Origin: Bacillota bacterium
Lineage (GTDB): Bacteria > Sysuimicrobiota > Sysuimicrobiia > Sysuimicrobiales > Segetimicrobiaceae
DNA: 64,000 bases
Reading direction: 5' to 3'
Assembly: GCA_021324255.1 (NCBI GenBank)
Contig: JAJPJL010000130.1
Coordinates: 1-64,000 of the forward strand
Numbering within the stretch: the stretch's first letter is position 1; each line of letters opens with the position of its first letter. A program made the translations under genes and the position numbers. Shown piece by piece: positions 18,451-42,885 of the stretch. The notes below the pieces were generated by a model. It was not told where the DNA came from. It worked only from the letters and a program-made list of their open reading frames with translations, and made no database searches.

Positions 18451-19455
18451 TTAGCCCGAGGCGGCGGCTTGGCTCGTGGGCTCGGGTCGCCCCGACGCCG
18501 GGGCCGCGGCGTGACGCCCGAGTGTCCCCATGCGGCTCGGCCACAGCCCCTGGGGCCGCAGCAGCATGAGCAGGATCAAGCCGACCCCAAAAGCCAGCAT
18601 GCGCACGGTCTGAAACGCGCGCAGCACCTCGGGGAGGCCGACGATCACGACGGCCCCGAGCACGACGCCCGGCAGGCTGCCCATGCCGCCGAGGATCACG
18701 ACCATCAGGATGTTCACCGATTGGACGAAGGTGAAGCTCGTCGGATCGATCGCCGTCAGCTTCACGGCGAAGAACGACCCCGCCACGCCGCCCAGCAGCG
18801 CTCCCAGCATGTAGGCCTTGAGCTTCGCCGACACCGTGTTGATGCCCGCGGCCCGCGCCGCGATCTCGTCCTCGCGCACCGCGCGCCAGGCCCGTCCCAG
18901 GCGGGATCGCGCCGCGTTATGGGCGAGCATCAGGACGGCGGCCGCAAAGGCCAACCCAAGGTAGTACAAGGCCGCCGAACCGCTCAGCGTCACGGGGCCG
19001 ATGGAGGGACGCGGGATGCCCCAGACCCCGTCCGGCCCGCCCGAAAACGACAGGTTGGTGGCGGTAATGCGTACGATCTCCCCGAAGCCGAGCGTGACGA
19101 TCGCCAGGTAGTCGCTGCGCATGCGCAGGGTCGGCGCCCCGATGATCGCGCCCGATACGGTCGTGAGGCACGCCGCGACGGGGATCGTCAGCCAGTAACT
19201 CATGTGATGGTGCACCGTCAGGATCGCGCTCGAGTACGCGCCGATCGCAAAGAACGCCGCGTAGCCGAGGTCGAGCAGCCCCGCGTATCCGACGACGATG
19301 TTCAACCCGAGGCCGAGCATGACGTAGATCAGAATGAGGGTCGCGACATCCGTGACGTAGGCGTTCGCGGCGAGCGGAAGGACGAGCGCGGCGAGGCCCG
19401 TGGCGATCGCCAGGCCGGCGCGTATCGAGGCGATCTGCCGGCGGCGCGGGTCCAT
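18451..19455 (-). CDS. livM: Branched-chain amino-acid type ABC transporter permease LivM
   Basis: 334 residues with about nine hydrophobic helices. LGLGLNIVVGYAGLLDLGYA is the LivM hallmark and the cytoplasmic coupling loop has RAVREDEIAARAAGINTVSAK. ATG 19453-19455 overlaps the livH stop by one base (TGATG). No LivG/LivF ATPases follow; downstream is 181 bp without a gene, then the convergent GMC gene. The ATPase must come from elsewhere in the genome. Confidence 0.9.
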   Translation of the reverse strand: MDPRRRQIASIRAGLAIATGLAALVLPLAANAYVTDVATLILIYVMLGLGLNIVVGYAGLLDLGYAAFFAIGAYSSAILTVHHHMSYWLTIPVAACLTTVSGAIIGAPTLRMRSDYLAIVTLGFGEIVRITATNLSFSGGPDGVWGIPRPSIGPVTLSGSAALYYLGLAFAAAVLMLAHNAARSRLGRAWRAVREDEIAARAAGINTVSAKLKAYMLGALLGGVAGSFFAVKLTAIDPTSFTFVQSVNILMVVILGGMGSLPGVVLGAVVIVGLPEVLRAFQTVRMLAFGVGLILLMLLRPQGLWPSRMGTLGRHAAAPASGRPEPTSQAAASG

Positions 19456-20354
19456 CACATCCGCTCGACGACCCGCTCGCCGAGCAACCCGCGGGGCCGC
19501 ACCACAAGGATGAGAATGAGGATGCCAAAGGTGACGACGTCCTTCCACCGGCCGGAGATGTATCCGGTCGCCAGGCTCTCGACGATGCCGACGATGAAGC
19601 CGCCGAGCATCGCGCCCGGGATGTTGCCGATCCCGCCGAGCACCGCCGCCGTAAACGCCTTCAGGCCCGCCAGGAACCCCATCAGAAACGAGATCTGGCC
19701 GTAGTACAGCCCCGTCATGACGCCGCCGAACGCCGCGAGCGCGGACCCCACGAAGAAGGTCGCGGCGATGACGCGGCTGACGTCGATGCCCATCAGGCGC
19801 GCCGCGTCTTGATTGATGGCCAGGGCCCGCATCGCCAGGCCGAGCTTCGTGCGGTGCACCAGCACGTAGAGGGCCAGCATCAGCGCGAGGCTGACCAGGA
19901 AGATCGTCACCTGCATCCACGACACGACGAGATCGCCGAGCGCCGGGCCCCCGGTGTCGAAGAGGCTCGGGTAAACGAGGAACGACGGGCTGTAGATCAG
20001 CAAGAGGCTGTACTCCAGCGTGAGCGAGGCGCCGATCGCCGAGATGAGGATCGACAGCGGCGACCGGAGCAGCGGCCGGTACGCCACGCGGTAGATCAGG
20101 ACCCCGAGGAGCCCCGTCGCGCCCATGGACACCACCAAGCCGAGGGCCGTCAGGACGAGCGGGTTGCGGAGGTGCAGCCCGGCCAGGAGCGACAGCATCG
20201 AGAGGCCGATGAACGCCCCGACGCTGTAGAGGTCTCCCTGCGCAAAGTTGATCAGGCGGATGATGCCGTACACCATCGTGTAGCCGAGGGCGATCAGCGC
20301 GTAAAAGGCCCCGACCGTCAAGCCGTTGACCAGTTGCTGGAGCGCAACGTCCAC
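19455..20354 (-). CDS. livH: Branched-chain amino-acid type ABC transporter permease LivH
   Basis: 299 residues. The start MDVALQQLVNGLTVGAFYAL, followed by YTMVYGIIRLINFAQGD, is diagnostic of LivH. The coupling helix MRALAINQDAARLMGID is present. It is transcribed after the substrate-binding protein, separated from it by 110 bp containing a strong hairpin, and overlaps livM by one base. Confidence 0.9.
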   Translation of the reverse strand: MDVALQQLVNGLTVGAFYALIALGYTMVYGIIRLINFAQGDLYSVGAFIGLSMLSLLAGLHLRNPLVLTALGLVVSMGATGLLGVLIYRVAYRPLLRSPLSILISAIGASLTLEYSLLLIYSPSFLVYPSLFDTGGPALGDLVVSWMQVTIFLVSLALMLALYVLVHRTKLGLAMRALAINQDAARLMGIDVSRVIAATFFVGSALAAFGGVMTGLYYGQISFLMGFLAGLKAFTAAVLGGIGNIPGAMLGGFIVGIVESLATGYISGRWKDVVTFGILILILVVRPRGLLGERVVERM

Positions 20355-20464: not shown

Positions 20465-21595
20465 CTACGCGGCCGCGCGGTAGGCCGTGAACTCCCCGTC
20501 CCGGATCTCGAGCACCATGTAATTGACGCCGGCCCGGTCGCCCTTGGCGTTGAAGGAAATCGTCCCGGTGATCCCCTTGAAGTCCGTGGTCCGCGCGAGC
20601 GCCTTGATGATCGCCGCCCGATCGGTCGTGTTCGCCCGCTTGATCGCCGCGATGGTGATGTTGACCGCGTCGTACTCGTACGCCGAGTACGGGCCGGGCG
20701 CGTGGCCGTACTTGGCGCGGTAGGCGGCGATGTACGCCTTGGCCTCCGGCAGGAACTGGGCGAGCGGTGCGGACGTCACGAGCACCCCGTCGGCCGCGGC
20801 TCCCGCTTCCTTGATGAACGTCGGATCGTTGTTGGCGTCACCGGCCATGAACTCGCCCGGCACGCGGAGTGCCTTGAACTGCCGCGCCAGCAGCCCGCCT
20901 TCGGCGTAGTATCCCGTGAAGTAGAGGACGTCGGGCCTGAGGCTCTTGATGCGGGTGAGCGTCGCCGTGAAGTCTTTCTCCCCCGGCGTGATCGCGTCGA
21001 AGAAGACGACGTGCACGCCGGGCTTGCCGGCGAGGGCGGTGCGCGTGGCCTCGGCCAGTCCCTTCGCGTAGACGGTGTTGTCGTGCACGATCGCGATGCG
21101 GTGGGCGTGCAGGTCGTCCACCATGAAATTGGCGGCAAACGGCCCTTGCTGATCGTCGCGGCCGATGTCGCGGAACACGTTATCGAACCCCTGCTCCGTG
21201 AGCTGCGGGTTCGTCGACGCGTCGGCGACGAACGCGACCCCCGCGGTATGGAAGACGCCGCTCTCCGGCAGCGCCGCCGACGAGCAGTAGCCGCCGGCGA
21301 CGGCCACGACGCCGGCGTCCACCAACTTCTGCGCGGCCGTCACACCCTGCTGCGCATCGCACGCGTCATCCGCGGACACGATCTCGATCTGCCGGCCGAG
21401 CACCCCGCCCCTGGCATTCGCCTGATCGGCGGCGAGCCGGGCACCGTTGAGGATGTCCTGGCCGGCCTCCGCGCTCCCGCCGGACAAGGGCACGGGGACG
21501 CCGAGTTTGACGGGCGCTCCCTGCGCCCCGCCTGCCGGAGCACACAGCGCCAACACGACGACGACGAGCACGCTCACCGGCGCAAACCTACGCAT
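20465..21595 (-). CDS. ABC transporter substrate-binding protein, branched-chain amino-acid (LivK) family
   Basis: 376 residues. A signal peptide (MRRFAPVSVLVVVVLALCAP, cleavage near GGAQGAP) precedes the type-I periplasmic binding fold: VKLGVPVPLSGGSAEAGQDI, NGARLAADQANARGGVLGR and AVAGGYCSSAALPESGVF. The start at ATG 21593-21595 has GGGAGGTG upstream; the frame extends to 21691 without a ribosome site. Two Cys pairs in the mature part could form disulfides. The ligand is unknown (amino acid, urea, amide and aromatic binders share this fold). A PHO-box-like promoter sits about 40-105 bp upstream, so it may be induced by a PhoB-type regulator. Confidence 0.88.
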   Translation of the reverse strand: MRRFAPVSVLVVVVLALCAPAGGAQGAPVKLGVPVPLSGGSAEAGQDILNGARLAADQANARGGVLGRQIEIVSADDACDAQQGVTAAQKLVDAGVVAVAGGYCSSAALPESGVFHTAGVAFVADASTNPQLTEQGFDNVFRDIGRDDQQGPFAANFMVDDLHAHRIAIVHDNTVYAKGLAEATRTALAGKPGVHVVFFDAITPGEKDFTATLTRIKSLRPDVLYFTGYYAEGGLLARQFKALRVPGEFMAGDANNDPTFIKEAGAAADGVLVTSAPLAQFLPEAKAYIAAYRAKYGHAPGPYSAYEYDAVNITIAAIKRANTTDRAAIIKALARTTDFKGITGTISFNAKGDRAGVNYMVLEIRDGEFTAYRAAA

Positions 21596-21632: not shown

Positions 21633-21700
21633 ACCGTACTCCCGCGGCCGGGTCCTGACGTTGCCGGCGTCCCAACGCCAGGCAAATTCACGGTAAATTC
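21633..21700 (-). promoter_or_regulatory. PHO-box-like 11-bp repeat promoter upstream of the ABC binding protein
   Basis: Read on the minus strand: units AATTTACCGTG, AATTTGCCTGG, CGTTGGGACGC and CGGCAACGTCA in tandem at 11-bp spacing, then 17 bp, then a -10 hexamer TACGGT (21633-21638). Transcription would begin near 21626, giving a leader of about 30 nt with the GGGAGGTG ribosome site. The same architecture recurs at 29.1, 29.7, 30.1, 30.5 and 33.7 kb. Confidence 0.7.
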
Positions 21701-28641: not shown

Positions 28642-29001
28642 TCAGTGCGCCTGCGGCGCGGCCCCCGCTTTCGCGAGATTGTAGAGGCTCGCCACGTTCA
28701 AGAGCAGGACGACGATCCCTCCGACGAGGGACGTCCAGTGGTCGCCCAGGCTGCCCGCAAACGACAACGCGGACGGCGCGATGACGAACCAAATACCGAC
28801 GAGACCGTTACAGTAGTAGATCCAGGCCCGCCGGCGAACGTTCCCGTTCAGCACCGCGGCGCCTGCGACGATCAGCAGGATTGCGCCGCCGACGATGCTG
28901 GTGACCATCATGGGCGGGTGGTTCGTGTAAAAGAGCGCGAACGGCGACATAATGAACCACACGCCGATCAGTGCAGTTACCGCGTTCTCCCAGGTCATCA
29001 T
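28642..29001 (-). CDS. SPW-repeat membrane protein
   Basis: 119 residues. Two internal repeats with the characteristic pattern (ALIGVWFIMSPFALFY and GLVGIWFVIAPSALSF) define the SPW repeat family, each a pair of membrane helices. The function is unknown. ATG 29001 is preceded by AAGGAAGTGAGG; a GTG at 29010 is possible. A PHO-box-like promoter lies about 115-185 bp upstream on the same strand. Confidence 0.82.
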   Translation of the reverse strand: MMTWENAVTALIGVWFIMSPFALFYTNHPPMMVTSIVGGAILLIVAGAAVLNGNVRRRAWIYYCNGLVGIWFVIAPSALSFAGSLGDHWTSLVGGIVVLLLNVASLYNLAKAGAAPQAH

Positions 29002-29117: not shown

Positions 29118-29186
29118 ACTGTAGCCGCGCCGGCACGCGTTGACGTTGCCTGGGCGTAACGCGGGGAGAAACTTTCGGTAAAATTG
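29118..29186 (-). promoter_or_regulatory. PHO-box-like 11-bp repeat promoter upstream of the SPW-repeat gene
   Basis: Minus-strand units ATTTTACCGAA, AGTTTCTCCCC, GCGTTACGCCC and AGGCAACGTCA at 11-bp spacing, then 17 bp, then -10 hexamer TACAGT (29118-29123). The predicted start is near 29111, giving a leader of about 110 nt. The remaining 29187-29389 stretch is very GC-rich and shows no gene. Confidence 0.7.
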
Positions 29187-29389
29187 ACGCTTCGTCCGAA
29201 TGCCGCCGCGGGGCGGCGCGGAGGCCGCCGGGCGCGGCGCGCGTCCGGCCGAGCGCCCCGAACGTTTACTCGAGCGCGACCCCACGGCGAGACGGAAGAT
29301 GGCGGAGCAGCGTGATCCCGTGCCCCGAGAGCGCGGGCCTGGTAGGGGCGCGAATCACGGGTGCCCGCGGCGGACGGCGCCGGCGACGG

Positions 29390-29536
29390 CTACAGGTGTC
29401 CCGAGAGAACGAGGACCAGCGCCACTAACCCCAGGATGCTCAATGCGCAGAGGACCGGGAGCCACACGCCCGAACTGCGCGACACGCGCCGCGCGGCTCG
29501 CGCCGTGCTATCGTTCCGCGTGTCGTGATCGCCCAT
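29390..29536 (-). CDS. Putative 48-residue single-span membrane protein
   Basis: From ATG 29536 the minus strand encodes a basic N-terminus (MGDHDTRNDSTARAARRVSR) and one clear transmembrane helix (VWLPVLCALSILGLVALVLV) ending in SGHL. Positive-inside charge suggests a cytoplasmic N-terminus. An AAGGGA lies about 14 nt upstream, which is far for a ribosome site. Support is the helix, the codon pattern and a PHO-box-like promoter 140-210 bp upstream on the same strand. No family recognised. Confidence 0.45.
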   Translation of the reverse strand: MGDHDTRNDSTARAARRVSRSSGVWLPVLCALSILGLVALVLVLSGHL

Positions 29537-29677
29537 GGCTGCGGCGGCAGTCCCTTTCTCACCCACGTGTCGGGGAACTCGATTCGCTCATGAGGTCCCG
29601 GAGCCGCGCCGCGCGCGGGGCTGGGTTCGCGACACCTGCATCTGCCAGGGCTCGTCTCGTGCGTCGCGTCACGCTCC

Positions 29678-29746
29678 ACGCTACTCCACGGCGAAAGGGC
29701 TGACGTTGCGGGAATCCAAACTCCATGAAAACTGTTGGTAAACTGC
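29678..29746 (-). promoter_or_regulatory. PHO-box-like 11-bp repeat promoter (best-conserved copy)
   Basis: Minus-strand units AGTTTACCAAC, AGTTTTCATGG, AGTTTGGATTC and CCGCAACGTCA at exact 11-bp spacing; the first three begin AGTTT. After 17 bp comes the -10 hexamer TAGCGT (29678-29683), predicting a start near 29671. Transcription would run toward the small membrane ORF at 29390-29536. Confidence 0.72.
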
Positions 29747-29822
29747 GCGGTCGCGCATCCGCCGCGCTCAGCGCGCGCGCTACGAGACGCGTGGCTGCTG
29801 CCGCATGCTCCCGGCCCGGCCA

Positions 29823-30065
29823 TCACACGCCCCGCTCCCGCCATCGCGCCCACGCGGCCGCCTCGCTTGCGATGCGGCCGCGCGCCTCCAGCGTGTCGCA
29901 TGCAGGATGAAGATGCACGCGATACCGCCGGGTGCCGTACCGGCTCATGCGGGTGTAGCCACGCACCTCGAACGCCGGGTGCGCGCCGAACGAGGCCATA
30001 ATGGGCTCCCCGCAGGCCGCGCAAAATCCGTCGATGGTCGTCGCTTTCAGCGTGTGTGCGTTCAT
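29823..30065 (-). CDS. Small CxxC protein of unknown function
   Basis: 80 residues from ATG 30065. A CxxC pair (FCAACGEPI) and a later HLHPAC provide four possible metal ligands, suggesting a small zinc-binding fold. The C-terminus is a helix rich in Ala and Arg (EARGRIASEAAAWARW). The ribosome site is weak (GGACGAG). A PHO-box-like promoter 70-140 bp upstream is oriented toward it, which supports a real gene. Confidence 0.55.
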   Translation of the reverse strand: MNAHTLKATTIDGFCAACGEPIMASFGAHPAFEVRGYTRMSRYGTRRYRVHLHPACDTLEARGRIASEAAAWARWRERGV

Positions 30066-30137
30066 CACGGCTCGTCCGGGCCGTTGCCATGGTCCGCTCG
30101 CCGGCCGCACCGGCGCGCCGCGTGGATCCCAAGAATC

Positions 30138-30206
30138 ACGTTACTCCGACCGCCGCGGGACGGGGTTGCCGCCGCCTAAACGAAATGGAAACTTGTGGCA
30201 AATTGC
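30138..30206 (-). promoter_or_regulatory. PHO-box-like 11-bp repeat promoter upstream of the CxxC protein
   Basis: Minus-strand units AATTTGCCACA, AGTTTCCATTT, CGTTTAGGCGG and CGGCAACCCCG at 11-bp spacing, then 17 bp, then TAACGT (30138-30143). The predicted start is near 30131, about 65 nt before ATG 30065. This copy shares a 16-base core with the copy at 30.5 kb, which faces the other way. Confidence 0.7.
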
Positions 30207-30415
30207 GCGGCCCGCCGGCGCCGCGTTCATCCAACGTTATTTAGTGCGCGGCGCGACCGCCGGCGCGCTCAAGTTCTAGACCGCATCGCCTTCCAACCCG
30301 CTCCGTCGCTGCCGCCGCCTGCGCCGTTCGCACCTATCCCAGGCCGGACAGCCCGGGCTGACCGGGGGCGAAGCTCGCCGGCCGGCGTCCCGAGCCTCGC
30401 AGACCCGGACCCGTC

Positions 30416-30459
30416 GAGTTCCTCGCCCGCGTAAACATTGGGCAAACGATGCGTTACGT
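30416..30459 (-). promoter_or_regulatory. Degenerate partial PHO-box-like repeat
   Basis: Minus-strand units ACGTAACGCAT, CGTTTGCCCAA and TGTTTACGCGG keep the 11-bp period, but the fourth unit and the -10 element are not recognisable. Probably a decayed or weaker site. No gene was found downstream of it on the minus strand. Confidence 0.35.
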
Positions 30460-30499
30460 GGCGGCCCGCGTCCACGTCTCACCGCTTTGACGCGTCACG

Positions 30500-30567
30500 A
30501 TTTTGCCACAAGTTTCCGTCCTGTTTAGCCGCCGGCAACCTCAAGCGGCCCATGCATGGCGTACGCT
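30500..30567 (+). promoter_or_regulatory. PHO-box-like 11-bp repeat promoter upstream of the PhoX-like remnant
   Basis: The only copy on the plus strand. Units ATTTTGCCACA, AGTTTCCGTCC, TGTTTAGCCGC and CGGCAACCTCA at 11-bp spacing, then 18 bp, then TACGCT (30562-30567). The predicted start is near 30575. The next coding sequence is a Tat-signal fragment at 30657 that resembles a PhoX-type phosphatase, the kind of target expected for a PhoB/PhoP regulator. Confidence 0.72.
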
Positions 30568-30656
30568 GGATTCCAACAATCGCGGGGGCGCGCTCCGCTG
30601 ACGACGGGACGCACCGCCGAGTTCGATCGGGCGGGGCACCTCAGCGGGAGGAGGCG

Positions 30657-30836
30657 ATGGCCATGGCACGATGGGGAGATTCTGCGGCGCAGCGCCGGGG
30701 ACGTGGGCGCTCGACACGCCGCGAATTTCTTCGCACGGTGGGCGGCGGCGTCGCGGGCGCCCTGCTACCGCTCGCGGGGACGGGGGCAGCCGATCCGGTC
30801 AACGGCATCAACTTCGCGGCGCTCACGAAAACCTAG
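30657..30836 (+). pseudogene. Truncated Tat-exported protein, probably a PhoX-type alkaline phosphatase remnant
   Basis: 59 residues from ATG 30657, preceded by GGGAGGAGG. The segment STRREFLRTVGGGVAGALLP is a textbook twin-arginine signal, followed by an Ala-rich cleavage region and NGINFAALTKT, then a stop. Many PhoX/DUF839 phosphatases begin with this signal and a G-[IV]-N-F segment, but the catalytic body is missing. The 210 bp after the stop contain no clear continuation. The family assignment is inferred from the start plus the PHO-box-like promoter. Confidence 0.5.
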
Positions 30837-31048
30837 GCATCGATGGCGCGAGCGATGCTCGCCGCATTCTTGTCCACAGGCCACGGCGACAATCGGTGCC
30901 CGGAAAGGGGGTGATGACGTACGCAGCCGCCTCGGCACACTCGGGGCGCCGCCTGGTCAGGACTCGCAGTCGCGGTGTCGAGCCGATCGACAACGCGGAG
31001 TGAAGGGAGGTGGGGAGTCCCGCCATCGGGGAGCAGCGGGATGAGAGT

Positions 31049-32656
31049 ATGTGGTCATCCATGATCAGAGGCATCAGTGTATGCACGATCGCCTGCCTGT
31101 GCGGATTCGCCCTGATCGGGGCGCCGGGACGCGGCCAGGCGGCCGGCCCGACGACGCTGTCCATCGCCGTCGGCATCGACGCCGATACGCTCGATCCGGA
31201 GGGGCAAACGACGACGACGGTCGCCAACATGGTCGACTACATGTTTGATCCGCTGGTCTGGTACAACGGCCAGCGGACCGGCCTCCACGGCCGGCCGCCG
31301 TACACCGCAATCGAGCCGGTCCTCGCCACGTCATGGACGGTGAGCCCGGACGGCCGCACCTACACGTTCAAGCTTCGGCAGGGCGTCAAGTTCCAGGACG
31401 GCACCGAGTTCAACGCCGACGCGGTCAGGGCGAACATCGACCGGTGGCTCGATCCGGAGGTCCGCAATCCCAGCCGCTATTACTGGGACGCGATCGACGC
31501 GAACCGGATCGACACCCCGGACCCGTATACGGTGGTGCTGCATCTGCGCCGGCCGGACCCCACCCTGCTGGAGAAACTTGCGACAACCGCGGCGGAAATC
31601 GTGTCCCCGACCGCAGTCAAGAAACTCGACAATGGGAAGATCGCCCTCGGGCCCGTGGACGCGGGGACCGGCCCGTATGTGTTCAAGGAGTGGGTCCACG
31701 GCGATCACATCACCCTGGTGCGGAACCCGACCTACTGGGGGCGCAAGCCCTACTTCGATCAGGTGGTCTTCCGCGTGGTCCCGAACGCGGGCACGCGCGA
31801 GACGATGCTGCGGGCCGGCGACGTGCAGATGGCCTTCGAGCCCCCGGCGCCCGATCTGCGGGCCCTCCGGCGCGACCCCTCCCTCCGCGTGATCGAGGGG
31901 CCGAGCGACCGCGACATCTTCATCGGCCTGAACAATCTGTACGGTCCGCTCAAGGACGTCCGCGTGCGCCAGGCGCTCAACTACGCTATCAACAAGAACG
32001 CGATCATCGACAGCGTTTTGTTCGGCCTGGGCAATGTGCTCCAGTCCCCAACGACCCCATTCGAGTTCGGTTACGCGCAGATCCAACGCGGCGGCTGGCC
32101 GTTCAATCCCGCGAAGGCCAAACAGCTTCTGGCCGAAGCGGGGTATCCCAACGGGTTTGCGGTGAGCCTGCGGACCCCCACCGGCCGGTACATCCAGGAC
32201 TATCAGTTCGCGCAGGCGATCGCGGCCCAGCTGGCCAACGTCGGCGTGCGCGCCAACGTCCAGACGGCGGATTGGCCGACCTACATCGGTTGGCTGACGG
32301 CTCCCGCATCGCGTTCGCCGCTCCAGATGTTCGTCCTGGGCTGGGCGACGCAGTACCTCGATGCCGACGGCGAGCTGTTTGGGCAGTTCTCGTCCAGTCA
32401 GTGGCCGCCGTCCGGCCTGGCGTCGACGTTCTACAAGGATCCGCAGGTGGACAGGCTGCTGGTGGCCGGGCAGACGACCGTGGACACGCGGCAGCGGCTC
32501 GCGACCTACCGGACGGCGCAGCGGCTGATTTGGACGGACGCGCCCTGGGTGTTTCTCTGGTCGCAGAAGTTCTACGTCGTGACGAGCAGCCATCTCCGCG
32601 ACGTGGGCATCACCCCCACGGAGAAGTGGAGCGCGCTCTACGCAACATGGCAATGA
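31049..32656 (+). CDS. ABC transporter substrate-binding protein, peptide/nickel (family 5) type
   Basis: About 535 residues. A signal peptide (MIRGISVCTIACLCGFALIG) precedes the SBP_bac_5 fold: SIAVGIDADTLDPEGQTTTT, LATSWTVSPDGRTYTFKLRQ, GVKFQDGTEFNADAVRANI, and late DVRVRQALNYAINKNAI and FNPAKAKQLLAEAGYPNGF. These proteins bind oligopeptides, nickel chelates, sugars or glutathione; the ligand is unknown. ATG 31049 or 31061 are the likely starts; a GTG at 31010 overlaps the only good Shine-Dalgarno. No DppB/C permeases or ATPases are adjacent. The 249 bp after it show nothing recognisable. Confidence 0.86.
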   Translation: MWSSMIRGISVCTIACLCGFALIGAPGRGQAAGPTTLSIAVGIDADTLDPEGQTTTTVANMVDYMFDPLVWYNGQRTGLHGRPPYTAIEPVLATSWTVSPDGRTYTFKLRQGVKFQDGTEFNADAVRANIDRWLDPEVRNPSRYYWDAIDANRIDTPDPYTVVLHLRRPDPTLLEKLATTAAEIVSPTAVKKLDNGKIALGPVDAGTGPYVFKEWVHGDHITLVRNPTYWGRKPYFDQVVFRVVPNAGTRETMLRAGDVQMAFEPPAPDLRALRRDPSLRVIEGPSDRDIFIGLNNLYGPLKDVRVRQALNYAINKNAIIDSVLFGLGNVLQSPTTPFEFGYAQIQRGGWPFNPAKAKQLLAEAGYPNGFAVSLRTPTGRYIQDYQFAQAIAAQLANVGVRANVQTADWPTYIGWLTAPASRSPLQMFVLGWATQYLDADGELFGQFSSSQWPPSGLASTFYKDPQVDRLLVAGQTTVDTRQRLATYRTAQRLIWTDAPWVFLWSQKFYVVTSSHLRDVGITPTEKWSALYATWQ

Positions 32657-32905
32657 TATCCGCGTAACAAGCGTCGGGGCGCGGGTCCGGGGCCGGCGGA
32701 GCGGGAACCACCCGCCGGATCGCCCTGAGACGGCGCCGGCTCCCCGCCCGCGGCCCGCACCCCCGCAACGGCGTGGGGCTCATCGAATGCCCGCCAACGC
32801 ACGCGGCAGGGCGGCTCCGGTCGATCCGAGGAACAGCCACGGGATCGTATAGCGGCCGGTCGACGCGCCGGGCGGCGGCATCGCCGGGCCGGATCCTCGC
32901 GACGG

Positions 32906-33103
32906 CTAACAGGCCTCGCGCTTGACCGTGGGGCCGAGCCGGACGAGCAGCGCGTCTACCATCGCCAGCCGTTCCCTGAGGGCCGTGCGCAGCAGTGTGC
33001 GGCTCGTGTGGTGGATCTCGCTCGGGAGCGCCCGCCGCTCCTCGTGAAGGAGATCGATCAACAACGCGCGCTCCGCCTCGGTGAACTGCGGGGACGGGGT
33101 CAT
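32906..33103 (-). CDS. Small helical protein of unknown function
   Basis: 65 residues, predicted almost wholly helical, with LIDLLHEERRALPSEIHHTS and LRTALRERLAMVDALLVRLG. ATG 33103 overlaps the stop of the upstream gene (ATGA), so the two form a coupled pair. I do not recognise the family. The paired His residues could bind metal or be structural. Confidence 0.6.
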   Translation of the reverse strand: MTPSPQFTEAERALLIDLLHEERRALPSEIHHTSRTLLRTALRERLAMVDALLVRLGPTVKREAC

Positions 33104-33441
33104 TGCGGAGCGTGGGCGTCGCTTTCCAGAATCTTGTGGAGGTACTCTGCGTTGCGCCGGCGGATCTCCCCGATGTCCGGCGCCGAGTACAGCGAGTCCA
33201 CGATCGCGGCTCCATGGGTCTCCTGCGTCCATGTCAGCTCCACGCGGTCGCCCTTGTGGCGTGCCGGCGTCGTGGGAAGCATCGTCAGGTGGAACTCCAA
33301 GCCCGCGGCTTCGGCGATGTGAAACACCATGATCTTGCCCGGCGGGTCGAGCTGTTCGACAATTTGCGGCACATCGGCGATGTGCCCTACAAGATGGTGC
33401 CGCTCCGTCCCGCGGTGCGGGAAGAATCGAGACAGGTTCAT
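33100..33441 (-). CDS. Conserved-looking protein of unknown function
   Basis: 113 residues from ATG 33441, which has GAGGAGCG about 5 nt upstream. It contains HHLVGHIADVPQIVEQLDPP, MVFHIAEAAGLEFHLTMLPT and VELTWTQETHGAAIVDSLYS, a mixed alpha/beta pattern with several His but no motif I can name. It is translationally coupled to the 65-residue gene downstream. A PHO-box-like promoter lies about 210-275 bp upstream on the same strand. Confidence 0.62.
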   Translation of the reverse strand: MNLSRFFPHRGTERHHLVGHIADVPQIVEQLDPPGKIMVFHIAEAAGLEFHLTMLPTTPARHKGDRVELTWTQETHGAAIVDSLYSAPDIGEIRRRNAEYLHKILESDAHAPQ

Positions 33442-33648
33442 CGCATCGCTCCTCGTCGTCGACTGTGCGCGGCGTTCGCGCACGAACGCGTCGGCCACGT
33501 TCGGAGGATGTGGGCCGCAGGACATTTGCCAATCGGGCCCGCGACGACACCCTCACCGCGGCCGGCGGCGCCTGAGCGGACCCCGAGGCATCTGCCGGGG
33601 GGATTTCGCCCCCGGCCGGCATGCTCCGACGCCCGTACCGGTATGGTT

Positions 33649-33717
33649 AGCGTACCAGGCCGCGGCCGGGTGAAGGTTACCGGAGCATAACCGGGACGAC
33701 AACAGAGGGTAAATTCG
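33649..33717 (-). promoter_or_regulatory. PHO-box-like 11-bp repeat promoter upstream of the 33.1-33.4 kb gene pair
   Basis: Minus-strand units AATTTACCCTC, TGTTGTCGTCC, CGGTTATGCTC and CGGTAACCTTC at 11-bp spacing, then 17 bp, then TACGCT (33649-33654). The predicted start near 33642 gives a 200-nt leader to ATG 33441. The remainder of 33442-33843 holds no other gene. Confidence 0.65.
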
Positions 33718-35182: not shown

Positions 35183-36136
35183 CTACCGGTCGCGGGTCAA
35201 CAGATAAATCGCCAGGTCGTGCAGCCAGCGGCCCCGGGCGCCGAGCGGCTCGAGGGCCAGGACCGCCTGCGCCGTCGCCTCCTGCGCGAGCTCGCGCGCG
35301 GCGGTCACGCCGAACACGCCGGGAAAGGTCAGCTTGGCCTGCGCCGCGTCGCTGCCGGTGTGCTTGCCGAGCGCCGTTTCATCGCCGAGCACGTCCAGGA
35401 GGTCGTCCACGATCTGAAACGCGAGCCCGACGTGGGCGCCGTATCGCGCGAGCGCGTCCAGGGCCGCGTCCGATGCGCCGCCGAGCAGGCCGCCGATGCG
35501 GAGACAGGCCTCGATCAGCGCGCCGGTCTTGAGCCGGTGGATCTCTCGAACGTCGCGGGATCGATCGCGCGCCGCCAACAGATCGAGCGTCTGCCCGCCG
35601 ACCATACCCCGCGCTCCGATCCCCGTCGCGAGCGCGGCGATCGCGCGGACGACGCGGTCGGGGGCGATGCCCGGCACGCCGGCGTTCCGCGCCAGCAGGT
35701 CGAACCCCAGAGCCTGGAGCCCGTCGCCGGCAAGGACGGCGAGCGCGTCGCCGTAGACGACGTGACACGTCGGCCGCCCGCGCCGGGTCGGCGAATCGTC
35801 CATCGCCGGCAGGTCGTCGTGGACGAGCGAGTAAGTGTGGACGAGCTCGACGGCGCACGCCGCCGGCAGGACCGCGTCGGCCGCGGTTCCCCCAACCTCG
35901 GCCGCGGCGATGACCAGGAGCGGGCGGAGCCGCTTCCCGCCCGCAAACACGCTGTACCGCATCGCCTCGTGCAGCGTGGGAGGCACGCCATTCGCGCCGA
36001 GGAGCCGGTCGAGCCCGTCTTCAACCGCGCGGCGATCGGCCCTCAGACGCGCTTCGACCGCCAGGCGCGCCTGGGGCGACAGGACGAGGGTCGGACCCGC
36101 AGGCGACACGCCCGCCTGTTCACCGCCGCCCGTCAT
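35183..36136 (-). CDS. ispA: Prenyl (geranyl/farnesyl) diphosphate synthase
   Basis: 317 residues. The first Asp-rich motif is in LVHDDLPAMDDSPTRRGRPT and the second in FQIVDDLLDVLGD. KRLRPLL is the IPP-binding arginine region. The spacing DDxxxxD in the first motif (DDLPAMD) is typical of bacterial IspA. It makes FPP, the substrate of HpnC/HpnD encoded upstream in the same operon, and is its last gene, 5 bp after hpnG. ATG 36136 is the best start. Confidence 0.9.
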   Translation of the reverse strand: MTGGGEQAGVSPAGPTLVLSPQARLAVEARLRADRRAVEDGLDRLLGANGVPPTLHEAMRYSVFAGGKRLRPLLVIAAAEVGGTAADAVLPAACAVELVHTYSLVHDDLPAMDDSPTRRGRPTCHVVYGDALAVLAGDGLQALGFDLLARNAGVPGIAPDRVVRAIAALATGIGARGMVGGQTLDLLAARDRSRDVREIHRLKTGALIEACLRIGGLLGGASDAALDALARYGAHVGLAFQIVDDLLDVLGDETALGKHTGSDAAQAKLTFPGVFGVTAARELAQEATAQAVLALEPLGARGRWLHDLAIYLLTRDR

Positions 36137-36141
36137 GCCGC

Positions 36142-36813
36142 TTACCGCCCCCCGGCCGGCAGACCGGCCGGGCGCGGATCCCGCGGCCCCGCGTGCGCGA
36201 CGACCTGCCCGATACGCGGCAGCGCCGCCGCCACGACGGTCGCGGCCCGGCGCGCGTACCGCGGCGCTGCGCCGAGGAGCCATATCGCCTCACCCCATGC
36301 CCGCGGACGCACGAGGACCGACGCTGGCCGCTGCCACGCCGGCCCGAGTTCGCGGCACGGGGCATCGAGCACGACCCTCACCGCGGCGAGACGCGGAGCG
36401 TCGATGATGCCGGTCTCCATGTCGACCGCGGCGCAGCCGCGGGCCGCCCAGGCTCCGCGAGCAGCGCCCCGCACGAACTCGGACGCCGTTCCGATCGGCC
36501 GGCACTCCGGGAGCCATCCACACCGGCGGGCGGCCGCGACGAGCGCGTCCACGAGCGCGGGATCGCAGTCCGCCCAACGGCCGTCCGGCCGGAGCACCCG
36601 CCTCGGAATCACGACCGCGCCCGGGCGGACGCCGGGATCCACGCTGCCGGCGAGACCGCACGTGATGACCGCGCCGTCGAACGCCCCGCTGCGCAGGCGG
36701 CCGAGGCCGATCCCCGCGGCGATGATGCGTGCGCCCCGGATCGTCCGGCGCACAGCCCACGCTTCGAGACCGGTCGCGGCCAGCACGGTGACCGGCTCCG
36801 TGCTAGGAGACAT
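36142..36813 (-). CDS. hpnG: Hopanoid-associated phosphorylase (adenosylhopane to ribosylhopane)
   Basis: 223 residues of nucleoside-phosphorylase fold. AAGIGLGRLRSGAFDGAVIT and CGLAGSVDPGVRPGAVVIP are strand-loop elements of the family, and AAVDMETGIIDAP carries the ME-type ribose-contact motif. HpnG removes adenine from adenosylhopane. It overlaps hpnA by 11 bp and sits between hpnA and ispA, which fixes the assignment better than the fold alone. Confidence 0.83.
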   Translation of the reverse strand: MSPSTEPVTVLAATGLEAWAVRRTIRGARIIAAGIGLGRLRSGAFDGAVITCGLAGSVDPGVRPGAVVIPRRVLRPDGRWADCDPALVDALVAAARRCGWLPECRPIGTASEFVRGAARGAWAARGCAAVDMETGIIDAPRLAAVRVVLDAPCRELGPAWQRPASVLVRPRAWGEAIWLLGAAPRYARRAATVVAAALPRIGQVVAHAGPRDPRPAGLPAGGR

Positions 36814-37789
36814 AGCCCTCCGTCCGGTACCAGGCCACCGCGCGCTCGAGCGCCGGATACACCGGCCCCGGCGCGTAGCCCAATTCGGCCCGCGCCTTTG
36901 TGCTGTCGACATACATCCGCTCGGCGGACATCCGCACGCCCTCGAGCGGGATCCGGGGCACGCTGCCCGGCCGGAGCCGGCACCGCGCCTCGTCCGCGTA
37001 GCCCAGGGCCAGCGCCAGCCGGTACGGGATGCGGCGGCGCGGGACCGGCCTGCCGGTCGCGTCGCCGAGCGCCCGCCAGAGGTCTCCGAACGACATGTTG
37101 TCGCCGCCGACGAGATATCGCTCCCGGGGGCGGCCGCGCTCCAACGCGAGGATGTGGGCGCGCGCGACGTCCTCGACCGCCACGAGGTTGCACCCGCCGC
37201 CGGGAGGCGCGGCGAAGATGCGACCCCGGGCAAAATCCAGAATGAGCCGGCCCGTCGGCGTCGGCTTCCAGTCGCCGGGACCGATCGGCATGGTCGGCAA
37301 CACCAGCACCACCGGCACCCGGGCGGCCAGCGCCGCGTATTCCTGCTCGACTTTCGACCGGTGGTAGCCGGCACCGGGCCCGAGGGGCGCGCGGTCGTGC
37401 TCGGTCGCGGGCCGCCCGTCGGACCGGGCAGGGCCCACGGTCGCGGAGCTCGAGGTGACCACCGCGCGCTCGACGCCCGCGATGCGCGCCGCCTCGAGGA
37501 GGCCCGCCGTGCCGGCCACATTGACGGCGCGGAGCTCGGCGCGGTCGGCGGGCGTAAAGGAGTACAGGGCCGCGCAGTGCACGAGATAGCGGCACCCCCG
37601 GAGCGCCGGCACGAGCTCGCCCGGCCGGCGCAGATCGCCCAGCACCGGCTCGGCGCCCTCGACCGTCTCCCCGGGGCGCCGCACGAGCGCCCGCACCCGG
37701 TAGCCCTCGGCGCGGAGGGCATGGAGCACGTGGCGGCCGATGAAGCCGGTGGCGCCCGTCAGGAAGACGTAGTGCCCCTCAGTGCCCAC
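36803..37789 (-). CDS. hpnA: Hopanoid-associated sugar epimerase/reductase, extended SDR
   Basis: 328 residues from a GTG at 37787-37789, which overlaps the hpnH stop by 11 bp. The NAD(P) fold is VFLTGATGFIGRHVLHALRA, the catalytic region is VTSSSATVGPA and the YxxxK is YHRSK. VLVLPTMPIGPGDWKPTPTG is typical of HpnA. It probably modifies the C5 side chain of extended hopanoids. The frame could be read from 37849, but that would overlap hpnH by 71 bp. Confidence 0.87.
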   Translation of the reverse strand: MGTEGHYVFLTGATGFIGRHVLHALRAEGYRVRALVRRPGETVEGAEPVLGDLRRPGELVPALRGCRYLVHCAALYSFTPADRAELRAVNVAGTAGLLEAARIAGVERAVVTSSSATVGPARSDGRPATEHDRAPLGPGAGYHRSKVEQEYAALAARVPVVLVLPTMPIGPGDWKPTPTGRLILDFARGRIFAAPPGGGCNLVAVEDVARAHILALERGRPRERYLVGGDNMSFGDLWRALGDATGRPVPRRRIPYRLALALGYADEARCRLRPGSVPRIPLEGVRMSAERMYVDSTKARAELGYAPGPVYPALERAVAWYRTEGYVS

Positions 37790-38786
37790 GCGCCGCCCGC
37801 AGCGACTCCCGGAGCGATCCCAGCGTGGCGACCACGGCGGTGGGTTCATAGCCGCAGTGCGCCATGCAGTTCGCGCACTTCGGGTGGCGGCCCCGGCCGT
37901 ATTGGGACCAATCCGTGTCGTCGATCAGCTCGCGAAAGGTCTTCGCGTACCCGCCGTCCGCCATCAGGTAGCACGGCCGCTGCCAGCCGAACACCGAGTA
38001 GGACGGCACGCCCCACGCGGTGCAGGCAAAATCGACCTTGCCCTCCAGGAAGTCGAGGTACAGCGGCGTGTGGTTGAGCCGCCACTTCCGCCGCCGGCCC
38101 CCGGAAAAAGCCTCCCGGAAGATCGCCCGCGTCCGCTCCACGGTCAGGAAGTTGGATTTGTTCGGCGCCTTTTCGTACGCGTACCCGGGGGCGATCTGCA
38201 TGCGGTCCACCCCCAGCTCATCGTTGATGAAATCGAGCACCTCGCGGATCGACGCGGCGTCGTCCGTGGCGAAGAACGTGGTGTTGGTGGTAACCCGGAA
38301 GCCGCGCCGCTGCGCCGCGCGGATGGCGTCCACGGCGATGTCGAACACGCCGTCGCGGCAGACCGACCGGTCGTGGCGCTCCCGCTTGCCGTCGAGGTGG
38401 ATCGACCACACGAAGTACGGGGACGGCGTGAAGAGGTCCAGCTTCTTCCGCATCAAGAGCGTGTTCGTATTCAGATAGACAAACCGGCGGCGCTTGACGA
38501 GCGCCTCCGCGATGAGGTGGATCTCCGGGTGGACGAGCGGCTCGCCGCCGGCGATGGACACCACCGGCGCGCCGCACTCCTCCGCGGCGTGCAGGCACTC
38601 GTCGACGCTGAGGCGCCGGGACAGCACCTCCTCGGGGTGCTGGATCTTGCCGCAGCCGGCGCACGCCAGGTTGCACCGGAACAGCGGCTCCAGCTGCAGG
38701 ACGAGCGGGAATTTTTGAACGCCCCGCAGACGGTTGCGGAGCACCCACGAGGCCACGGCGACCTTTTCACGCAACGGAACGCTCAT
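37779..38786 (-). CDS. hpnH: Radical SAM adenosylhopane synthase
   Basis: 335 residues. The [4Fe-4S] cluster motif CxxxCxxC is in LFRCNLACAGCGKI and the SAM-binding GGEPL in SIAGGEPLVHPEI. A C-terminal Cys-rich segment (PKCANCMAHCGYEPTAVVAT) is characteristic of HpnH. It joins the 5'-deoxyadenosyl group to diploptene, the first step to extended hopanoids. The gene begins 6 bp after shc. Confidence 0.93.
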   Translation of the reverse strand: MSVPLREKVAVASWVLRNRLRGVQKFPLVLQLEPLFRCNLACAGCGKIQHPEEVLSRRLSVDECLHAAEECGAPVVSIAGGEPLVHPEIHLIAEALVKRRRFVYLNTNTLLMRKKLDLFTPSPYFVWSIHLDGKRERHDRSVCRDGVFDIAVDAIRAAQRRGFRVTTNTTFFATDDAASIREVLDFINDELGVDRMQIAPGYAYEKAPNKSNFLTVERTRAIFREAFSGGRRRKWRLNHTPLYLDFLEGKVDFACTAWGVPSYSVFGWQRPCYLMADGGYAKTFRELIDDTDWSQYGRGRHPKCANCMAHCGYEPTAVVATLGSLRESLRAARGH

Positions 38787-38792
38787 CGGTTC

Positions 38793-40736
38793 TCACCTCA
38801 CCAAGAGGTCGTGCCGCTCCCGAGGGGCGGCCGGGATTTCTGCCGCCGCCGCGTGGGCGAGCGCCAGCATCGGAAACACGTGCCGGTACAGATGGTAATT
38901 GATGTAGAAGTCGCGCGGGAACCCCGTGCCGGTGAACTCGGGCTCCTCCCAGGTCCCCCCGCGCTGCGCCGCCGCGAGAAACGCCAGCCCGCGCTGGCAG
39001 GCCGGATGCCGCCCCTGACCCGCGAGCTGGAGCGCCAGGACCGCCCAGGCGGTTTGTGACGGGGTGCTCCGGCCGACCCCCGCAAACGACGCGTCCTCGT
39101 AAGAATAGCAGGTCTCACCCCATCCGCCGTCGGGCTGCTGCACCGAGAGCAGCCACGCGGCGGCGCGCGCCACCATCGCGGGGCCGGCGCCGACCGCGGC
39201 GAGCCCCGAGATCACGCACCATGTCCCGTAGATGTAGTTCACGCCCCAGCGGCCCCACCAGGCGCCCCCGGGCTGCTGCGTCGCCGCGAGATAGCGCAGC
39301 GCGTCGCGGACGACGCCGTCACGGCCGTCCACGCCGAGCGCCCCGAGCATCTCCACCACGTGCGCCGTCACGTCCTCCGACGGCGGGTCCAGGACCGCGC
39401 CGAAGTCGCAAAACGGCAGCCGCGTGATCACCCGGCGCGTATTGTTGCGGTCAAAGGCGCCCCAGGCGCCCCCGCGCGACCGCATCGCGAGCACCCAGCG
39501 GCGGGCGCGCTCGATCGCGTCGCGGGCGAGCGTTGCGGCGCCGCTCTCCAGCAGCGCGACCACGACGACGGCGGTGTCGTCGATGTCCGGGTACAGGTCG
39601 TTGTCGAACTCGAACGCCCACCCGCCGCACGGGACGCGGGGACTCCGCACGGCCCAGTCGCCCGGGACGTCGATTTGCTCGGCGAGGATCCACCGGACCG
39701 CCGCGCGCACGTGCGGCTCGTCGAGCCGGTGCCCGGCCGCGGCGAGCGCCCGGAGCGCCCACGCGGTGTCCCACACCGGCGACATGCAGGCCTGAAACCG
39801 CCACCCGTCCGCGTCGTCGATGGAGAACCGGCGCATGCCCTCGAGCCCGCGCCGCATGACCGGATGGTCGGCCCCCATCCCCTCCAGCGCCAGCGCGATG
39901 AGCGAGTACACCCACGGCGGCTGGATGCCGCCCCAGCTCCCGTCCGCCTCCTGACGGTCCTGAATCCACTGCACGACGCGCCGGCGCGCCGCGGCGCGCC
40001 CCGGCTTCCACGGCGAGCGCTCGTACATCTTGAGGAACGCGTCGGCCCACCACAGCGGGCCGCCGCCCGGCACGCGCGCCAGCGATCCCTGGGTGCCCTC
40101 GAGCACCACCTCGGGGAGGGCCACGCCGAGCGGGCGTACGGGGCGGTGGGCCAGCACGATCGTGAGCGGCGCGATCGTCCCCCGGGCCCAGCACGCGAAA
40201 TCGTACAGATTGAACGGGACGAACGGTGGCAGATACACGATCTCCGGCGGGATCGTGGGGATCCCCGCCCACGGATACTGGCCGAACAGAGCGAGCCAGA
40301 TCTTCGTGAACACCCGAGCGCGCAACACGCCGCCGAGCGAGCGGATGACGTCGAGCGCCCGCCGCATCGGCGCGGCCCCCGGGTCCACTCCGAGCACCCG
40401 GAGCGCCGCGTATGCCTCGATCGTCGTGCTCAGGTCCGCGGGCGCCTCGTAGTAGAGGCCCCACGATCCGTCCTCGCGCTGCGCGCCGAGAATGTGGCGG
40501 ACCGCCCCCGCACGCACGCCCTGCACGTCCAGCCCGAGGAAGCGCAGCAGCAGCACGTGCTCCGCGGTCATCGTCACATTGGTCTCCAGCTCCGCGGTCC
40601 ACCAGCCGTCGGGATGCTGGCGTTCGAGGAGCCAGGTCACGGCCGCCGCGAGGGCGCCGCCGGCGTCGCCGCCGTACGGCGGCGCGGGCCGCCGCGTCTC
40701 CCTGGCCCGCTCGTCGAACCCGCGCCCGGACATCAT
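38793..40736 (-). CDS. shc: Squalene-hopene cyclase
   Basis: 647 residues. The catalytic DxDD motif is in NDLYPDIDDTAVVVVALL. Several QW repeats are visible (for example QEADGSWGGIQPPW, QPGGAWWGRWGVNYIYGTW, QQPDGGWGETCYSYEDASFA). It cyclises squalene to hopene on the membrane. ATG 40736 overlaps the hpnE stop (ATGA). Length and motif order are normal for bacterial SHC. Confidence 0.95.
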   Translation of the reverse strand: MMSGRGFDERARETRRPAPPYGGDAGGALAAAVTWLLERQHPDGWWTAELETNVTMTAEHVLLLRFLGLDVQGVRAGAVRHILGAQREDGSWGLYYEAPADLSTTIEAYAALRVLGVDPGAAPMRRALDVIRSLGGVLRARVFTKIWLALFGQYPWAGIPTIPPEIVYLPPFVPFNLYDFACWARGTIAPLTIVLAHRPVRPLGVALPEVVLEGTQGSLARVPGGGPLWWADAFLKMYERSPWKPGRAAARRRVVQWIQDRQEADGSWGGIQPPWVYSLIALALEGMGADHPVMRRGLEGMRRFSIDDADGWRFQACMSPVWDTAWALRALAAAGHRLDEPHVRAAVRWILAEQIDVPGDWAVRSPRVPCGGWAFEFDNDLYPDIDDTAVVVVALLESGAATLARDAIERARRWVLAMRSRGGAWGAFDRNNTRRVITRLPFCDFGAVLDPPSEDVTAHVVEMLGALGVDGRDGVVRDALRYLAATQQPGGAWWGRWGVNYIYGTWCVISGLAAVGAGPAMVARAAAWLLSVQQPDGGWGETCYSYEDASFAGVGRSTPSQTAWAVLALQLAGQGRHPACQRGLAFLAAAQRGGTWEEPEFTGTGFPRDFYINYHLYRHVFPMLALAHAAAAEIPAAPRERHDLLVR

Positions 40737-42013
40737 GCCGCGTCCTCGAGGCCGTCCAGCATCTGCCGGGCCGCGCGCCGGCCGCTACGGACGGCGGATT
40801 CCAGCGTATCCGGCCACCCGGTGTCGGTCCATGATCCGGCCAGCACGAGCCGCCGGCTGCCGGTCCGAGGCCCCAGCTTGGCCACGCCGGGCGCGGCCGT
40901 GAACGTGCCCTCGGGGCTCCGGGTCGCCGCGCCGCCCAGGAGCGTGGCGCCGGCGAGCGCCGGGACCGCCCGGCGCACCTCGTCCCAGCACAGCGCGACG
41001 AGCTCATCGCTGGGCCGCGCGATCAGCGCGTCCGCGGCGCTCAGGCTGCAGCAGAGGTACCCCGCCGCCTTTTCGAACACCCACTGCACCGGCGAATCAA
41101 GGAGGGCCGCCAGGTCGAACCCGAGACCGCCGCGGTCGTGCCAGAGGTGGACGTCGATTATGGGCCGGGCCGTGTACCCGGTCACCGCCGGCAGCCCGTT
41201 CCCCCTGTGCGACGCCAGCAGGCTCGAGAGCTGCGGGGGCGAGACGGCCGCGATCACCCCGTCGAATTCCATCACGGCGCCGCCGGCCAGCACGATCTTC
41301 GCCGCGCGGTCCGGCGACAGGTCCACACCGCTCACCGGCGTCTGCAGCCGCACGTCGCCGAGCCGCGACGCGGCAGCCTCGGCCAGCCGCGCCAGCGGCA
41401 CCGCGAGGTACCCGAGCCGCGCGGCGCGCGGGTCGCGCAAGAACGCGGTCTCGAGCACGAACCCCGCGTCCGCGGCGCTCATGCGGTCGAGCGGGGCGTT
41501 GAGCGCGGGGACGAGAAACGGGCGCCAAAACGCGCGCAGCGCCTCCTCGCCCTGACCGAGGTGGGCCAGCCACTGCGCGCATGTCCCGTCCCACGCGCGG
41601 GCTTCGCGCGCGCGCACCAGCGCGCGGGCCACGTCGAACTTCGCCCGCCACCCCAGGTGCCGGTACCGCACGAACGAGGACACGAGATGCCACGGCGCCG
41701 GCAGTCGCGCCGATCGAAGGCGGCTCCGGGCCCCGGCCCGCGACAGCACCAGCACGTCGAACCGCTCCTGCAACCGCACGTGTTCTCCCAGGCCCAGCCG
41801 CCGGACGAACCCCAGGAACTCCGCGTAGCACCCCAGGAACACGTGCTGGCCGTTGTCCACCTCGCAGCCGTTGACGCAAAACGAGGTCGCGCGCCCGCCG
41901 AGCAGCCGGCTCCGCTCGAACAGGGTCACCCGGCACCCCGCCTCGGCGAGATCCACCGCGGCGGCGAGCCCCGCGAGGCCCGCGCCGACGACACCTACGC
42001 GGTGCGCAGCCAC
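40733..42013 (-). CDS. hpnE: Hydroxysqualene dehydroxylase
   Basis: 426 residues from a GTG at 42011-42013. FAD/NAD fold VGVVGAGLAGLAAAVDLAEA, then VTLFERSRLLGGRATSF, and C-terminal LVLAGSWTDTGWPDTLESAV, as in HpnE and phytoene-desaturase-like oxidoreductases. It reduces hydroxysqualene to squalene, the third step of the HpnCDE route from FPP. It overlaps hpnD by 19 bp and shc by 4 bp. A frame extension to 42235 is hpnD antisense-like and is discarded. Confidence 0.9.
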   Translation of the reverse strand: MAAHRVGVVGAGLAGLAAAVDLAEAGCRVTLFERSRLLGGRATSFCVNGCEVDNGQHVFLGCYAEFLGFVRRLGLGEHVRLQERFDVLVLSRAGARSRLRSARLPAPWHLVSSFVRYRHLGWRAKFDVARALVRAREARAWDGTCAQWLAHLGQGEEALRAFWRPFLVPALNAPLDRMSAADAGFVLETAFLRDPRAARLGYLAVPLARLAEAAASRLGDVRLQTPVSGVDLSPDRAAKIVLAGGAVMEFDGVIAAVSPPQLSSLLASHRGNGLPAVTGYTARPIIDVHLWHDRGGLGFDLAALLDSPVQWVFEKAAGYLCCSLSAADALIARPSDELVALCWDEVRRAVPALAGATLLGGAATRSPEGTFTAAPGVAKLGPRTGSRRLVLAGSWTDTGWPDTLESAVRSGRRAARQMLDGLEDAA

Positions 42014-42885
42014 GACCGCACCACGACGCCCAGTTTCTCCGCCGGCGACAGGTAGGCGCGGGCGCGCAGCGGGAGCGCGGGATCCCGCGCGATGCGCGCC
42101 AGGAGCCGCTCGTAGATCCCGGCCATCGTGAGCACGCACGCCGCGGGGCGCCGCGGGATCATCGCCGCGACGCGGAGGCCGGTCGCAAAGAGCGCGCGCG
42201 CCCGCTCGACCTCGAACGCCACGAGCGCGTTCCACCCGGGACCGGGCCGGCCGTCCAGCAGGTCCCCTTCCGCGATCCCGAAGCGCTCGAGGTCCTGCTG
42301 CGGGAGGTAGATCCGGCCCATCTGCGCGTCCTCGCGGACGTCGCGCAGGCAGTTGGTCAGCTGCATCGCCAGCCCGAGTTCATCCGCCCGGTCGAATGCC
42401 GCGGGATCCGCGTACCCGAAAATGCGGATGCACATCCGGCCCACCACGGAGGCCACGAGCCGGCAATACGCGGAGAGATCGTCCCAGGTGCGGTAGCGGC
42501 GCCGCTGCGCGTCCATCTCCACGCCGTCGATGAGCGCCATGAGCTCCATTTCCGGGATCGCGTACCGCCGGACGGCGTACGCCAGGACCTGCATCACGGG
42601 ATCGCCATACTCGCCGCGCATGCAGCGGCGCACGCGCTCCCGGTGCACCAGGAGACGCTCGCGGAGGCGGTCCGGGCCGATCGCGTCGGCCTCGTCGTCG
42701 ACCTGCCGCGAGAACCCGTACAGGGCGTAGATGGCGACCCGTTCGGCCCGCGGAAGCGCCACGAAGCCCCAGTAAAAGTTGGTGGCCGAGCGGCGCACGA
42801 ACCGGTGACAAAACACCTCGGCCGCGTGCAGGGTGCCGCGCCACGCGGCGCCGGTCCGGTCAAGCGGTACCGAGGTGGCGTGCAT
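41995..42885 (-). CDS. hpnD: Presqualene diphosphate synthase
   Basis: 296 residues of trans-isoprenyl transferase (squalene/phytoene synthase) fold. The first Asp-rich motif is in YGFSRQVDDEADAIG and the second in LTNCLRDVREDAQMGRIYLP. FYWGFVALPRAERVAIYALY opens the domain. It condenses two FPP to presqualene diphosphate. ATG 42885 follows GGGGGGACAGGA and overlaps hpnC by 26 bp. Confidence 0.88.
   Translation of the reverse strand: MHATSVPLDRTGAAWRGTLHAAEVFCHRFVRRSATNFYWGFVALPRAERVAIYALYGFSRQVDDEADAIGPDRLRERLLVHRERVRRCMRGEYGDPVMQVLAYAVRRYAIPEMELMALIDGVEMDAQRRRYRTWDDLSAYCRLVASVVGRMCIRIFGYADPAAFDRADELGLAMQLTNCLRDVREDAQMGRIYLPQQDLERFGIAEGDLLDGRPGPGWNALVAFEVERARALFATGLRVAAMIPRRPAACVLTMAGIYERLLARIARDPALPLRARAYLSPAEKLGVVVRSWLRTA

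Follow-up and report, generated by a model that had tools for sequence, protein, structure and literature searches.

Six promoter-like sites in the genome of an uncultured bacterial lineage are probably the operators and promoters of a small regulon private to that lineage and run by a dedicated two-component system. That the sites form a real and constrained promoter family with an OmpR-type layout is well supported by sequence comparison, and a lineage-specific response regulator with its histidine kinase is the best candidate for reading them. That this regulator binds the sites, that it activates rather than represses, and that it answers a stimulus are inferred. Three genomes are compared below: the window's genome (G000), the sister species Centralia_MAG_233 (G001), and another member of the same genus (G002); the window is the whole stretch of 64,000 nucleotides that was analyzed. 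The six sites, with their counterparts in G001 and the number of identical core positions, are:

21633-21700, minus strand: site 1, -10 TACGGT (21633-21638), upstream of a BCAA-type transporter operon; G001 ortholog L048:1154, core 21/21
29118-29186, minus strand: site 2, -10 TACAGT, upstream of an SPW gene; counterpart L048:16480, core 19/21
29678-29746, minus strand: site 3, -10 TAGCGT, upstream of a 48-aa single-helix protein
30138-30206, minus strand: site 4, -10 TAACGT, upstream of an 80-aa Cys-motif protein; ortholog L048:4833, core 21/21
30500-30567, plus strand: site 5, -10 TACGCT with an extra spacer base, upstream of a Tat-SBP remnant and an SBP_bac_5 gene; counterpart L048:10022, core 21/21
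33649-33717, minus strand: site 6, -10 TACGCT preceded by TGG, upstream of a 113-aa protein; ortholog L047:10434, core 20/21

All six had been located by an earlier sequence-only reading, and we found each at the position it gave, five on the minus strand and one (30500) on the plus strand. They share the pattern TTTRCC-N4-RTTNNNN-N4, a (G)TT-type third unit, then GGYAAC-N21-TANNNT, with N22 in one site. When aligned on TTTRCC, RTT lies at +10, TT around +22 to +24, and GGYAAC ends at +37; the fourth block is CGCAAC in one of the six and GGYAAC in the others. A fixed distance to the -10 holds exactly in five of the six sites, the sixth (30500) carrying one additional spacer base. No match to the pattern including the -10 was obtained in 100 dinucleotide shuffles of the window, and the four blocks without the -10, at two mismatches or fewer, occur six times in the window against 0.02 times in such shuffles (n=100). 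Across the 3.7-Mb genome, a pattern search allowing up to three mismatches returned only these six sites (reversed control, 0) and a profile search returned the same six with E values from 2e-15 to 1e-13, the next match being at 0.05; the first pass of these scans scores best candidates only, so that weak or degenerate sites may be missed. A genome-wide regulon was consequently rejected, since the genome holds six sites only and all of them lie inside 12 kb of one region. No known RNA element in Rfam matches the sites, and literature searches, in which coverage of structural and Pho papers was incomplete, found no description of the regulon.

The internal organization of the sites was examined with 19 full sites, in which TANNNT starts at +59 in 16 and at +60 in the remaining 3, no other offset exceeding 5. 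In a test of lags within sites the highest peak is at 11 and the next at 22, and when column profiles are compared at about 40 offsets, the two that best match unit 1 directly are exactly +11 and +22. Of the four 11-bp units originally described, the first three are thus confirmed as direct repeats, spaced by about one helical turn, and the fourth does not share this spacing. GGYAAC is the reverse complement of GTTRCC and matches units 1 and 2 far better inverted than direct, so a fourth direct repeat was rejected in favor of an inverted half-site. With the first T of the -10 set at -12, GGYAAC falls at about -39 to -34, preceded by the tandem units at about -71 to -44; there is no consensus -35, the position reading about ACGTCA in the alignment. 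We read the array as three putative head-to-tail sites followed by either an inverted fourth site or a contact for sigma region 4.

The genes of the promoter cluster are the following:

20465-21595, minus strand: LivK-like binding protein (Peripla_BP_6), ATG 37 nt past the site 1 -10
19455-20354 and 18451-19455: livH and livM, next after livK in the BCAA-type operon
21785 to about 28000: main cox/Rieske/cytochrome b operon, in the middle of the cluster and without a site
28642-29001, minus strand: SPW-repeat membrane protein of 119 aa (PF03779), start 116 nt past the -10
29390-29536, minus strand: predicted single-helix membrane peptide of 48 aa, read from sequence, with no significant family match
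29823-30065, minus strand: 80-aa Cys-motif protein, with clear relatives only in G000 and G001
30658-30837, plus strand: remnant of a Tat-exported SBP_bac_5 gene, 59 aa
31010-32656, plus strand: SBP_bac_5 (peptide-type) ABC binding protein, whose G001 ortholog has its own site, L048:7366
33100-33441, minus strand: 113-aa protein with no family assigned, followed by a 65-aa ORF at 32906-33103

The outputs of the regulon are mostly exported or membrane proteins. The 48-aa protein has a paralog in G001 (L048:10521-10667) that comes after a site of its own (L048:10400), and the 113-aa family is also present in other relatives whose genomes are without the motif. The ORF at 30658-30837 had been taken for a PhoX-like fragment; comparison with a 566-aa gene that G001 keeps intact (L048, site 10022), similar at the start and matching over the last ~15 codons, identifies it as the start and end of an SBP_bac_5 gene, a remnant left by an internal deletion. 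A hopanoid-type cluster (35183-42885), with a polyprenyl synthetase, a DUF3463 radical SAM protein, a squalene-hopene cyclase and their neighbours, adjoins the promoter cluster and is without the motif.

Among 61 genomes the motif was found, beyond the window's own, only in G001; G002 and the 58 others have none. That it might be common in other bacteria was rejected after an exact-pattern scan of 84,980 species genomes, where repeated matches occur only in Centralia_MAG_233 ('Bacillota bacterium') and those elsewhere are single and chance-like. G001 has 14 strong sites, clustered in the corresponding region: on C81 (26-53 kb), in the first 6.5 kb of C76 and on the 8-kb contig C103; the end of C81 and C76 are probably one region, because the alignment of contig C71 of G000 runs from the end of C81 on into C76. 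These sites precede ABC binding proteins, SPW membrane proteins, a second HtrA and small unknown proteins, together with a GH15 enzyme (about 520 nt away), more SBP_bac_5 genes and a second livK-like gene. A weaker site on C103 (L050:461-515, minus strand) is followed, 94 nt on, by a second gene for cytochrome oxidase subunit I, which is cut off by the end of the contig. Partial copies of the motif without a -10 are also present in G001 (L047:14016, L049:101 and L048:773); in the first (L047:14016-14065), compared with window positions 29700-29787, the repeats are kept and homology ends just past the fourth block, where the -10 is gone.

Ungapped alignment of five G000/G001 promoter pairs (livK, SPW, 80-aa, Tat-SBP and 113-aa) gave 102 of 105 identical core positions (97%), against 76/95 between units, 49/80 (61%) in the spacer and 87/230 upstream (Fisher p 4e-21), a contrast that is somewhat inflated because the core columns were picked from the same sites, although drift of spacer and flanks is still plain. 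A core held fixed while the spacer drifts, in front of unrelated gene families, upholds the original view of these sequences as promoter-like elements rather than simply copied DNA, and the proposed OmpR/PhoB-type layout upstream of genes is likewise supported for this family.

Candidate readers were sought by listing the PF00486 regulators of the three genomes and sorting them into orthologs. Only one group is present in exactly G000 and G001: an OmpR/RegX3-type response regulator at G000:C71:2459-3184 (minus strand), 90% identical to its ortholog at G001:C81:49672-50397 (minus strand), with no ortholog in G002 and a next best match of 55% among the 61 genomes; this co-occurrence with the motif concerns two genomes, which share many other genes. 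A HAMP histidine kinase is adjacent to the regulator (G000:C71:3357-4862, minus strand), with HAMP, HisKA and HATPase domains and an N-terminal part without assignment. In G000 the regulator is on a contig separate from that of the sites, and in G001 both regulator (L048:13672-14397) and kinase (L048:17515-18930) lie among the sites, the interval between them holding two further motif-bearing genes. The G001 cluster ORFs that were checked yielded no further DNA-binding domain. The regulator consists of a receiver and a Trans_reg_C domain, scores below the cut-off of all 25 NCBIfam models listed, and has RegX3 as its nearest solved structure (2oqr, 209 bits). No site was found before the kinase or the regulator, so that the system shows no autoregulation, a point that weighs against the pairing.

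These observations suggest a model in which the phosphorylated C71 regulator would bind the three head-to-tail 11-bp sites at about -71 to -44, and also the inverted half-site GGYAAC, in place of a -35 element, and would then recruit RNA polymerase to the TANNNT -10. The regulon would be young, having grown by accretion of promoter-bearing genes around the conserved cytochrome-oxidase operon. A less likely possibility is that the sites are recognized by a different regulator, or by an alternative sigma factor, whose gene lies elsewhere; GGYAAC would then serve as a -35-like element and TANNNT as the -10. GGYAAC, which stands at the -35 position, varies least of all the blocks, the link between the C71 regulator and the sites is indirect, and the genome-wide survey covered OmpR-type regulators only; however, the upstream tandem units, which a sigma factor alone would not need, are as conserved as GGYAAC, and the G001 cluster yielded a single DNA-binding gene, that of the OmpR-type regulator itself. 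That the sites represent a dispersed repeat or copied DNA with no role in regulation is very improbable. Their strict regional clustering, their presence before paralogous G001 genes (SBP_bac_5, SPW and 113-aa) and the partial copies described above would fit such an origin, but homology among the sites ends at the motif, the core stays fixed between species as spacer and flanks drift, and unrelated gene families are preceded in the right orientation by a -10 at constant distance.

The sequence-only reading had suggested a phosphate-starvation regulon, and we regard the identification of the sites as PHO boxes of a PhoB/PhoP regulator as contradicted and highly unlikely. In its favor are the 11-bp tandem layout, the resemblance of RTTTACC to the PHO unit GTTCACC of S. 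coelicolor (PMC4415409), and the fact that RegX3, the nearest solved relative of the candidate regulator, is phosphate-responsive (PMC7525159). A search for PhoU, however, led to contig C59 of G000, where pstS, phoB, phoR, pstC/A/B and phoU were recognized by position, length and sequence, and where the pstS-phoB intergenic region carries a different tandem 11-bp box (CTTAACCGTCTGCTAAC, later CTTAAC, then TACGAT) recognisable in three species. The motif matrix scores -7.5 in this region, versus 49-70 at the six sites, so the motif is absent from the core pst/pho locus; the refuting condition set in the sequence-only reading, a motif never found upstream of phosphate genes, thus went against Pho identity for this core locus, and the genome contains no additional site. 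Furthermore, G002 keeps the Pho locus yet has no motif, none of the genes downstream of the six sites is a phosphate gene, and the candidate regulator is distinct from the C59 PhoB, to which it is 48% identical, and falls below the PhoB equivalog cut-off (221 vs 296 bits). The CTTAAC-type box with its TACGAT-like -10 (L158:14464-14722 in G000, with equivalents in L159 and L160) is itself a candidate for the true PHO box of the genus. At the same locus in G001 (L159:6108-6780, C142), compared with G000 (L158:12309-14072), phoR and the C-terminal half of phoB are apparently missing, by true deletion or assembly artefact, and pstS, pstCAB and phoU are kept.

The cox operon of G002 has 79% nucleotide identity to the window, and the alignment stops at the ends of the operon: downstream of it the liv genes and their site are absent, and on the other side the contig ends. 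As the alignment ends with the operon, the motif-bearing genes seem either to have gathered round it in the ancestor of G000 and G001 or to have been lost in G002. Tentatively, and with less confidence than for the regulon itself, the arrangement may be viewed as an intermediate in the birth of a regulon, in which the operator class of a young two-component system (three tandem 11-bp units and, at the -35, a fourth that is inverted) has not spread further than a few tens of kb from the regulator, with promoter-bearing genes accreting and regulation tied to chromosomal neighbourhood. As the regulon occupies a single region in two species and is lacking in a third that retains the core cytochrome-oxidase operon, it offers a natural comparison for target recruitment by a new two-component system. 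For this uncultured lineage it also supplies a concrete pair of regulator and operator that is open to testing, and it brings several small unknown proteins together in one regulon.

Three known systems resemble the one described here. In the GlnR boxes of actinobacteria an OmpR-family protein reads several half-sites placed 11 nt apart (PMC5826061), and the present sites likewise have several at that spacing, but by inspection they differ in core sequence and orientation from the GlnR pattern gTnAC-n6-GaAAC, and no nitrogen-assimilation genes are among the annotated targets. In the SenX3-RegX3 system of mycobacteria the published motif is an inverted GTGAAC pair (PMC7525159), and the third and fourth blocks here make up an inverted pair that resembles it loosely; in contrast, our sites have two extra tandem units upstream and a phosphate role is contradicted, and the likeness of the regulators is that of a best solved match. 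The PHO boxes of PhoB/PhoP in E. coli and Streptomyces likewise present 11-nt direct repeat units to an OmpR-family regulator without a good -35, whereas the sites described here lie away from phosphate genes, which bear another box, and have their fourth block inverted. The distance from the last block to the -10, 21 bp here, is also longer than in E. coli by about one helical turn.
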